A stretch of DNA of 43,180 nucleotides from an uncultured Caulobacterales bacterium (lineage in GTDB: Bacteria; Pseudomonadota; Alphaproteobacteria; Caulobacterales; Maricaulaceae). Shown here one piece after another: positions 33,541 through 37,206 of the stretch. The notes under the pieces were generated by a model that saw only the letters and a program-made list of their open reading frames with translations, had not been told where the DNA came from and did no database searches. How positions within the stretch are numbered: the first letter of the stretch is position 1; each line of letters opens with the position of its first letter. The position numbers and the translations under genes are program-made. The stretch lies in NCBI GenBank assembly GCA_937927825.1, contig CALFWV010000026.1:1-43180 (forward strand). The letters are read 5' to 3'.

Positions 33541-33550
33541 AGCCTAAAAC
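33526..33550. repeat. Perfect palindrome over the stops of two convergent genes
   Basis: Arms of 12 bases (GTTTTAGGCTTT at 33526-33537 and AAAGCCTAAAAC at 33539-33550) flank a single T. It contains the dapB stop and the TAG stop of the opposing gene. It may act as a bidirectional terminator, though no T run follows on either side. Confidence 0.75.
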
Positions 33551-34047
33551 GTTTCGCCGTAATCAATATCGCCATAAAGATGTTGGTCCATTTCGAACTG
33601 CAAACTTCCGGGTGCAGTTTGGTGATAGCGCCGAGCCGCCAAATAAGCGATGCTGACCCAGACGGCGATAATCCCGAAAAACAGAAAAAACTGCCAAACC
33701 AAAAATCCCGGTTCAATCACCCGGCTTTGACCGGAGAGATTATAGATAAGGTTCAATCCTGCCTCAAAGCCGAACATAGCGATTGGTGTTGCAATCAAAA
33801 TCGCGAGCATGGCCCCGGCCACGTGTAACGGTCCCCGCGGACCATAGACCCGTCGATAAATCTGCTCGTAAGCCTCGCGGGTCATTGCCCCGGGCATCAT
33901 ATTATTGGCTTGCTTATAGTCATAATCGGCATGAGCATCCCCGCGAACCTGCCGCCACCCTATAAAAGCGCGAACCGCGAATATCAGCGCGATGGTTCCC
34001 ATCAGGACCAAGGCCCACACGAAAGATATACCTTCAAATTTTTGCAT
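33544..34047 (-). CDS. Integral membrane protein, function unknown
   Basis: A 167-aa protein with about three membrane segments (~8-27, ~73-95, ~117-138). Between the first two is a soluble loop with MMPGAMTREAYEQIYRRVYGPRGPLH, a Tyr/Arg-rich helix-like stretch. It ends in a hydrophilic tail (FEMDQHLYGDIDYGETF). No family with known function is recognised; similar genes are expected in related genomes near dapB or nth. It is divergent from the FMN reductase gene. Confidence 0.75.
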   Translation of the reverse strand: MQKFEGISFVWALVLMGTIALIFAVRAFIGWRQVRGDAHADYDYKQANNMMPGAMTREAYEQIYRRVYGPRGPLHVAGAMLAILIATPIAMFGFEAGLNLIYNLSGQSRVIEPGFLVWQFFLFFGIIAVWVSIAYLAARRYHQTAPGSLQFEMDQHLYGDIDYGETF

Positions 34048-35602: not shown

Positions 35603-35655
35603 TTCGGGGACCGGGTGAAAGCGGCGCGGATTTTCATATTTTGGGGATATCAGTC

Positions 35656-37146
35656 ATGAGATCTTATTTATTCGGCGCTGTTTCAGTGCTCAGCCTACTT
35701 GCAGCTACGTCTGCATCAGCGGACGACCACAACAGCGAAGGCTGGTATCTTCGCGGAAACGCAGGTTATGGCATTCATACAGACATCGATGTCGAAGGCC
35801 AAATCGACAGTTCCTTCCACGGCAATGGCACGCAGAGTGAAGGCAACGCCGGCTATTCTGTTGGTGTCGGCTATGATTTTGGCGACCACTGGCGCGTTGA
35901 AGCGGACATTGACAGCTTAAACACATCTTTGGGCAGCATCAGCCAGACGCCAAATTCAAGCGCGAATCTGCTAACTGAAACAGCGATGCTCAATGCTATA
36001 TATGACTTTGACGGTTTCGGAAATTTCGAACCTTATGTCGGTGCTGGTATCGGCGCGGTCCGGGGTAAAGCCAAGCTTTTTGCTGCTGACTTTGCAGACT
36101 CCGCAGGTGGGCGTGTTGTGAACCCGACCTGTGTCGGATCACGGGCGGCACCTGGCGGTTTAGAGTGCGGCGTCAGCGATTCAGATTTAGGCCTAGGCTT
36201 TCAGTTATTGGCGGGTGCAGGGTATAAACTCTCTGACAATTTGACGTGGGACACACATGCCACTTACCTCAAAGGTTCAGACTTAAAATTGAGCGGGCAA
36301 CAAGCCAACGTTAACACTGGTAACACTGCCTTTACCGACACGGTCGTTGGCGGCATTGGCGCGCTCGCGCTTGTGACGGGTCTTCGTTACACCTTTGGTG
36401 GAAGCAAATCGCCAACAGCTCCTGTCGTATCGACACCTGCGCCGACACCGACATTTGAGTGTTGGGACGGAAATATGGTGTTTAACTCCGGTCAGTGTTT
36501 GCCGAAACCAGAGCCTGTTGTTGAAGTTGTTCCGCAACCTGAACCGGTTCGCCAAACTCAAACGTGCTGGGATGGTTCAATTATGGACATTAGCGCAACT
36601 TGCCCGTCACAACCTGCACCAGAGCCGCTTCCGCAGACATATTCTTGCTGGGATGGTTCCGTGGTTTATGACTTGGCAACATGTCCTGTACAGGCACCCG
36701 TTGTTCAGCAGACAAACCTAAACTTGTGTAGCGAGTCGTCTGTTGCAATCTTTAATGTCCCGGCGAATAAAACGCCGAAGCAAATGCCACGTCTTGGTAC
36801 AATGCCAGAATTTGGCGACAGCCACGGCCTGACCCCATCGCAGTTCTATGACAAGCTCAACGCGCGTTATAATGATAATGCAACGGACAAAGCCTATTTG
36901 AACTACCTGTTCAAATCCATGGGTTACTCCAACGGTTGGTCCGATGCACAACCCTATATGTTCAGCGAAGAGGTTCTTCCTGTTGGAACGCGCGGCCTGT
37001 TGGGTCTCGGTAAGCAGCATCATTATGAATACTCAATCCTGCCAACGAATGACCGGGATCGCCAAGCGTTCCGCATTCAAAGCGCAAATGGGTCGGTCGT
37101 TCACTTCATGAAGACATGTGGTAACTACATGTATGCATGTGAATAG
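35656..37146 (+). CDS. OmpA-like beta-barrel protein with three CWDG repeats and an unrecognised C-terminal domain
   Basis: An outer-membrane protein of 496 aa. The signal peptide (~1-22) ends SASA. Residues ~25-255 form an OmpA-like eight-stranded barrel: GWYLRGNAGYGIHTDIDVEG, SVGVGYDFGDHWRVEADID, FEPYVGAGIGAVRG and VTGLRYTFGG. A Pro/Thr linker carries three CWDG repeats at Cys269, Cys304 and Cys331, each followed ~10 residues on by a second Cys. In related OmpA proteins such repeats lead into the peptidoglycan-binding OmpA domain; here residues ~355-496 are instead a different domain (SHGLTPSQFYDKLNARYNDN, NYLFKSMGYSNGWSDAQPYMFSEEV, ending CGNYMYACE). The ATG at 35656 follows GGGGATA. Two hairpins end the gene. 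Confidence 0.85.
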   Translation: MRSYLFGAVSVLSLLAATSASADDHNSEGWYLRGNAGYGIHTDIDVEGQIDSSFHGNGTQSEGNAGYSVGVGYDFGDHWRVEADIDSLNTSLGSISQTPNSSANLLTETAMLNAIYDFDGFGNFEPYVGAGIGAVRGKAKLFAADFADSAGGRVVNPTCVGSRAAPGGLECGVSDSDLGLGFQLLAGAGYKLSDNLTWDTHATYLKGSDLKLSGQQANVNTGNTAFTDTVVGGIGALALVTGLRYTFGGSKSPTAPVVSTPAPTPTFECWDGNMVFNSGQCLPKPEPVVEVVPQPEPVRQTQTCWDGSIMDISATCPSQPAPEPLPQTYSCWDGSVVYDLATCPVQAPVVQQTNLNLCSESSVAIFNVPANKTPKQMPRLGTMPEFGDSHGLTPSQFYDKLNARYNDNATDKAYLNYLFKSMGYSNGWSDAQPYMFSEEVLPVGTRGLLGLGKQHHYEYSILPTNDRDRQAFRIQSANGSVVHFMKTCGNYMYACE

Positions 37147-37152
37147 AATTAA

Positions 37153-37172
37153 TGAGGGGTGATTGCCCCTCA
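37153..37172 (+). terminator. First hairpin after the OmpA-like gene
   Basis: TGAGGGG / CCCCTCA, perfect 7-bp stem with a 6-base loop, seven bases after the stop. Only a short AT-rich tail (TAATACT) follows, so it may be an RNA-stabilising hairpin instead. Confidence 0.55.
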
Positions 37173-37206
37173 TAATACTCCGCCTCGGCAGAGTTTGACT
37201 GTAGAG

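Follow-up and report, generated by a model that had tools for sequence, protein, structure and literature searches.

The outer-membrane-to-wall tethers of diderm bacteria are known from a handful of systems, for which an excerpt of PMC10628300 names Lpp, Pal, OmpA, and OmpM and describes OmpA and Pal as tethering the outer membrane. A domain related to that of OmpA occurs in MotB, where, according to a passage in PMC3080404, it is believed to serve as the stator's anchor on the wall. We describe here a domain (the C-terminal domain, or CTD) that takes the place of the OmpA domain in an otherwise OmpA-like protein and that is also carried by an inner-membrane-type protein. The gene was found in the window, by which we mean the whole stretch of DNA analyzed, 43,180 nucleotides of contig CALFWV010000026.1 from an uncultured Caulobacterales bacterium (assembly GCA_937927825.1).

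RESULTS

A standard barrel joined to a new C-terminal domain

The window protein is built from the following parts.

35656..37146, + strand: barrel/CWDG/CTD gene, 496 aa plus stop, from translation; a TTG 15 bases upstream, at 35641, is an alternative start
35656..35721, + strand: signal peptide, residues 1-22, ending ...ATSASA, read from the sequence
35734..36399, + strand: eight-stranded outer-membrane beta-barrel, residues 27-248, from PF13505/PF02462, model strands, and Foldseek
36130..36168, + strand: Cys159 and Cys171, both located between strands of the barrel and invariant across 24 homologs
36460..36498, + strand: CWDG repeat 1, C269-C281, from sequence positions
36565..36603, + strand: CWDG repeat 2, C304-C316, from sequence positions
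36646..36684, + strand: CWDG repeat 3, C331-C343, from sequence positions
36715..37143, + strand: new CTD, residues 354-496, with invariant Cys358, Cys488, and Cys495, from a profile match, a 49-copy alignment, and an AlphaFold2 model

The N-terminus places the protein among the OMP_b-brl/Opacity barrels, both Pfam families matching above their curated cutoffs: PF13505 at E 2.7e-16 and 60.7 bits (cutoff, 28.7) and PF02462 at E 4.6e-10 and 40.1 bits (cutoff, 21). A full-length AlphaFold2 model built from 24 homologs has eight long strands here (residues 29-41, 64-74, 79-93, 101-117, 124-144, 169-191, 196-218, and 224-246, the last two in two pieces each), with a mean pLDDT of 74, a pTM of 0.46, and a poorly modeled linker and chain ends. 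Foldseek placed Escherichia coli OmpA at the top for this model (E 2.3e-8) and Neisseria NspA second, the barrel matches being OmpA 9a2m, 9fzd, and 1bxw and NspA 1p4t. The barrel and signal peptide are thus as standard as a preliminary description, made from the sequence alone, had judged them, the signal peptide still being a reading of the sequence. Cys159 and Cys171 probably form a loop disulfide.

That description had also pointed to three CWDG repeats beginning at Cys269, Cys304, and Cys331, rightly so; since every repeat reads C-W-D-G-x8-C, each holds two cysteines, and the partners are Cys281, Cys316, and Cys343. A 507-aa zinc-ribbon and TonB_C-like protein of the same genome (L006:451-1971, contig C32) has one CWDG-x8-C repeat as well, so the repeat is common to several proteins of the window genome, and it could be a nameable repeat family by itself.

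Although the eight-stranded N-terminal barrel of the OmpA family is present, two other marks of that family are missing: PF00691 gives no match to the window protein at E values up to 10, and the N..LS..RA wall-binding motif is absent. A Pfam search found no SLH family either. The protein is an OMP_b-brl barrel member by its N-terminus and lies outside the OmpA family by its C-terminus.

The gene's neighbors in the window encode DapB, an FMN reductase, endonuclease III, an amidohydrolase, and a PMT-type transferase, with no obvious operon partner beside the gene. Promoter- and terminator-like sites around it are no more frequent than expected by chance. An inverted repeat at 37152-37173, between the convergent barrel and amidohydrolase genes, is terminator-like on the - strand; it is no evidence by itself, because chance alone predicts 2.5 such repeats in the stretch that was scanned and only this one was seen. 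Between the dapB and FMN reductase genes lies a 167-aa open reading frame (33547-34047, - strand) that looks membrane-protein-like by eye and has no Pfam match at E 0.001.

The CTD is strongly conserved and without a recognized relative

No Pfam family matched the window's CTD at E 1. Searching with 49 copies gave nothing meaningful in Pfam, the best E value being 0.09 (three members, an MHC family), and the six Pfam names returned at E 0.09-0.27, each by one to three of the 49 members, were taken as chance. NCBIfam (0/49 at E 0.1) and PHROGs (0/49 at E 0.01) were equally empty, and the CTD profile found nothing useful among PDB sequences, the lectin 4tqj at E 0.26 being taken as chance. The preliminary description had staked its reading on the C-terminus having no clear match to a characterized domain, and across these three family databases the 49 copies have none. 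In the open-licence PMC literature, judged on titles and the openings of abstracts, we recognized no description of the domain.

Modeled alone by AlphaFold2, the CTD gives a confident structure (pLDDT 91.7; pTM 0.87) in which helices 47-60 and 62-74 come first and six strands after them, two short helices being placed ahead of and among the strands. Foldseek returned no PDB match at E ≤0.001 (best row, E 0.086 and probability 0.14), VIA-align of the chains in Foldseek's rows gave 0 of 997 at Z ≥2, and BFVD held no match at E 0.001. The predicted fold is accordingly one without a significant relative within the PDB and BFVD, which is not in itself proof of a new fold; for the same reason, solving the CTD would probably yield either a new fold or a remote relationship. 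Structure prediction had been proposed from the outset as a check, and its outcome agrees with the view that the domain is unfamiliar.

Conservation of the CTD is far beyond chance. Across the 49 copies all three cysteines (358, 488, and 495) are invariant, which gives substance to the early remark that cysteines sit near both ends of the domain, and there are invariant His and Asp residues as well. Pairwise identity of the CTD is 63-98%, with a mean of 78%, against a barrel mean of 52% (24 full-length barrel proteins). At pS values of 0.54-0.87, pN was lower in the CTD than in the barrel in nine of nine pairs tested; between the window protein and L011 it was 0.010 in the CTD versus 0.155 in the barrel, at pS values of 0.62 and 0.68. 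The CTD is therefore the slowest-changing part of the barrel protein. It is a real, new, lineage-bound domain family, and one that could already be catalogued from the 49-row alignment.

The CTD is confined to one family in the samples searched

The window genome (2.55 Mb in 220 contigs) has the CTD three times. It was found in 37 of 137 genomes and 8 of 19 genera of the family, including 16 of the 95 genomes with ≥90% completeness and ≤5% contamination; in the other 100 genomes (79 of the 95 best ones) none was found. A sample of the order (299 genomes) yielded ten family members with a match, and four partial matches at E 0.24-0.61 were taken as chance. The class sample (385 genomes) and the phylum sample (299 genomes) contained the CTD only in the window's own genome. 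A scan of one genome per species over 84,980 species, resting on two short peptide patterns, gave 41 loci, whose titles name Hellea, Litorimonas, Robiginitomaculum, or uncultured Caulobacterales. A pattern scan of IMG/VR and a tblastn search of PLSDB revealed no relative that would point to a phage or plasmid origin. Within the samples searched, the CTD is restricted to a single family, comprising Hellea, Litorimonas, Robiginitomaculum, and their relatives.

Three kinds of protein carry the CTD

The search for the same domain on other proteins, proposed in the preliminary description, was successful, for two further architectures occur in the window genome itself. Sorted on frame length alone, 30 of the 66 matches of the family survey have the size of the barrel protein, 10 that of the giant, and 23 that of the DUF1508 protein, and 3 are fragments; three of the barrel-sized frames and one of the DUF1508-sized frames could not be typed for shortness. 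When typing is done on domains and counting by gene, the 61 complete CTD genes comprise 27 barrel, 10 giant, and 20 DUF1508 genes and 4 that are untyped because contig ends cut them at the 5' side; these carrier loci are best matches and not a random sample. In all 61, the CTD is followed by only 0-3 residues.

The giant of the window genome has 1,912 aa (L009:548-6283), with DUF11 and weak SdrD/SpaA-like matches, no best Pfam stretch beyond about residue 580, and a long, strand-type C-terminal half, which we assume from its richness in strands to be an outer-membrane barrel. At an E threshold of 1e-30, its core is present in 50 of the 137 family genomes. Among 30 giant genes, taken from the best loci of the 50 genomes with a match, 10 have the CTD and 20 lack it with no other anchor domain seen at their ends; most of the latter end a few dozen residues past the last strand, and two end after Cys repeats. 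These two, L128 and L129, stop after one and two CxD-type Cys repeats, respectively, and are possibly linkers without a domain, left by a lost fusion. No degraded CTD was seen by eye in the first ~200 codons downstream, in three frames.

The third carrier (L010, on contig C38 of the window's own genome) consists of several DUF1508 repeats, an Ala/Pro-rich linker, one membrane helix, and the CTD. DUF1508 matches occur in 23 of the 137 family genomes. All 20 complete DUF1508 genes end with the CTD, which in each is preceded by a helix rich in Leu, Ile, and Phe; where a copy shows further hydrophobic windows, these are Ala/Pro-rich linkers, which were not counted as helices. When 249 genomes of the order were searched for DUF1508-plus-helix proteins with another C-terminus in sister families, only three genomes outside the family gave a match, in short DUF1508 frames of 119-139 aa.

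The CTD and the OmpA domain exchange places on one barrel

Relatives of the barrel occur in 78 of the 137 family genomes. Typing was confined to fetched loci and left out distant relatives (33-39% identity); of the 48 barrel genes with a 3' stop that were typed, 27 carry the CTD, 21 carry an OmpA domain, and none carries both or neither. The window genome has one barrel of each type. Its OmpA-type paralog, on contig C176, is 48-49% identical to the window protein over barrel and linker, has CWDG repeats, and ends in a normal OmpA domain that matches PF00691. Both kinds directly adjoin on the same strand in four genomes (G005, G006, G007, and G014) and lie several kilobases apart on one contig in four others (G032, G035, G038, and G040). 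The linker is 71-119 residues long from barrel to CTD and 71-99 from barrel to OmpA domain (15/24 ORFs with usable boundaries). The N..LS..RA motif, present in 27 of 27 OmpA-domain genes, occurs in 0 of 61 CTD genes. In the simplest history, the barrel gene would have been duplicated in tandem, and one of the two copies would then have had its C-terminal domain replaced. Several genomes thus hold a natural swap experiment, in which neighboring genes have the same barrel and linker and a different anchor.

Possible repeated arrival of the CTD on the giant

The CTD tree holds 62 distinct copies (27 barrel, 10 giant, 21 DUF1508, and 4 untyped, one DUF1508 gene contributing two) and is rooted at its midpoint only. 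Giant-borne CTDs fall among those of barrels, with six alongside the window's genus (support 87/78), three alongside the Hellea group (88/93), and the tenth, on a long branch, placed with weak support among the g9/g3 barrels. At least 3 carrier changes are needed (bootstrap, 2-3), yet the strongly supported branches by themselves force only 1, and a single fusion to the giant still fits those. A single clade of all ten giant CTDs was rejected (p 0.014), as was a clade of eight with two long branches removed (p 0.031). The pattern fits several fusions to the giant as well as a single one after which the CTD was copied over from the barrel gene. DUF1508-borne CTDs are the most diverse copies in the tree, and the DUF1508 protein may be the oldest carrier.

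DISCUSSION

The CTD as a candidate envelope anchor

The CTD is probably a lineage-specific envelope anchor. We give an even chance to a fuller reading, by analogy with the OmpA, Pal, and MotB domains: a portable periplasmic anchor whose most likely ligand is peptidoglycan. The peptidoglycan-binding OmpA domain of an OmpA-type barrel would have been replaced by an unrelated, lineage-specific, periplasmic CTD. The barrel, judged by family and predicted-fold matches, would sit in the outer membrane; the CWDG linker, of a measured ~70-120 residues and with presumed disulfides, would reach inward; and the CTD would dock on the cell wall, holding barrel and wall together. The CTD would also be joined to the inner-membrane DUF1508 protein and to the giant, outer-membrane-like protein, a spread paralleling that of the OmpA domain common to OmpA and Pal (outer membrane) and MotB (inner membrane). 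Topology suggests that the domain is periplasmic in all its placements, since the barrel is even-stranded and a single helix stands behind DUF1508 repeats of a cytosolic type. Peptidoglycan would be the likeliest ligand because both membranes face it, and the slow change of the CTD suits a fixed ligand. Several findings stand against an anchor. Neither its sequence nor its predicted fold connects the CTD with a known peptidoglycan-binding domain, it lacks the OmpA wall-binding motif, and its three invariant cysteines, an odd number, are unexplained by simple wall binding. It would be dispensable, none having been found in 100 of the 137 family genomes, and 20 of the 30 giant genes do without it. 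Since three true OmpA-domain proteins remain in the window genome, tethering would not depend on the CTD.

A broader and more tentative proposal is that the CTD is a wall-binding domain of new fold that arose in a single marine lineage, took over from the OmpA domain once the barrel gene had been duplicated, was fused anew to the giant perhaps three times, and sits on an inner-membrane protein as well. It would then be a second, independent solution to an OmpA-like role.

The presence of the CTD both behind an inner-membrane-type helix and on proteins of outer-membrane type would also suit a protein-protein docking module, with copies on the two membranes binding each other or a shared periplasmic partner and so bridging the envelope or placing proteins at one site, such as a stalk or pole. 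Its very strong conservation and odd number of invariant cysteines, which would allow an intermolecular disulfide, agree with this, and an excerpt of PMC11556061 describes Algimonas, a member of the Robiginitomaculaceae, as prosthecate. A fixed inner-outer pair is not obligatory, however, because the searches found the barrel-borne CTD but no DUF1508 carrier in one genome that is 100% complete (G045) and three that are 65-91% complete (G047, G053, and G057), and the window gene adjoins no obvious partner. We regard docking as possible but doubtful, and rank it second to peptidoglycan anchoring because OmpA-like domains show the same two-membrane spread. That the CTD is instead an enzyme, a periplasmic wall hydrolase of the papain/NlpC kind or another hydrolase, is improbable. 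Its invariant Cys, His, and Asp would be in keeping with catalysis, and some weak Foldseek rows belong to papain-like proteins (2k1g, Spr; 8xud, with MepS; 7n87; and 9l5u). These four rows have E values of 0.95-1.2, probabilities of ≤0.05, and TM scores of ≤0.22 and stand amid many unrelated rows, and VIA-align supported no chain. Papain-like enzymes need the catalytic cysteine at the start of a helix; no helix of the model starts at an invariant cysteine, and the CTD thus has neither the fold match nor the cysteine placement of that class.

The six cysteines of the CWDG repeats and the three of the CTD, together with the DUF1508 repeats ahead of the membrane helix in one carrier, could be read as a periplasmic sensor of redox state or metals whose signal goes to the cytosolic DUF1508 repeats. 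We consider this quite improbable, as CWDG-like repeats, by the pattern used, are missing from several CTD carriers and the barrel carriers have no evident signaling part. The preliminary description had left the domain either surface-exposed or periplasmic, and topology favors the latter; although two of the three carriers are of outer-membrane or surface type, an adhesin or receptor at the surface is very improbable for a domain that follows the last strand of an eight-stranded barrel, occurs also in a carrier that has just one clear membrane helix, and shows the strongest rather than the weakest conservation within the barrel protein. Least credible is a degenerate OmpA domain. The CTD has the position of the OmpA domain of the paralogs and a similar linker length, but its hhalign comparison with OmpA domains from 22 paralogs gave 0.1% probability, the motif is absent from every CTD gene, and two long helices followed by six strands are unlike the OmpA fold as an excerpt of PMC3080404 presents it. 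We rejected a divergent OmpA domain on the alignment and motif results, in agreement with the original judgment that the C-terminus lacks the OmpA fold. The same early account had called the module new to the OmpA family; new it is, but that wording proved too narrow for a domain common to two proteins that are not OmpA-like.

Comparison with known systems

Opa/NspA-type barrels (PF02462 and PF13505) belong to the same barrel family and have the same fold as the window protein; they are not known to have a periplasmic C-terminal domain. OmpM of diderm Firmicutes, as an excerpt of PMC10628300 describes it, likewise combines a barrel, a linker, and a periplasmic wall-binding domain that is not of the OmpA kind. 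In that excerpt the OmpM domain is N-terminal and of a known family, SLH, whereas the CTD stands at the C-terminus and has no family match. The OmpA-like domains of Pal and MotB put one type of wall-binding domain on both membranes, and the CTD has the same kind of spread; no homology of the CTD to these domains was found, and its wall binding is putative. From the domain of OmpA itself the CTD differs in sequence, motif, and predicted fold. The window protein is nevertheless like OmpA (an eight-stranded barrel plus PF00691), the C176 paralog included, in having a signal peptide, a barrel, and one C-terminal domain, and it shares with the OmpA-type paralog a CWDG linker and, in several genomes, a place as the neighboring gene.
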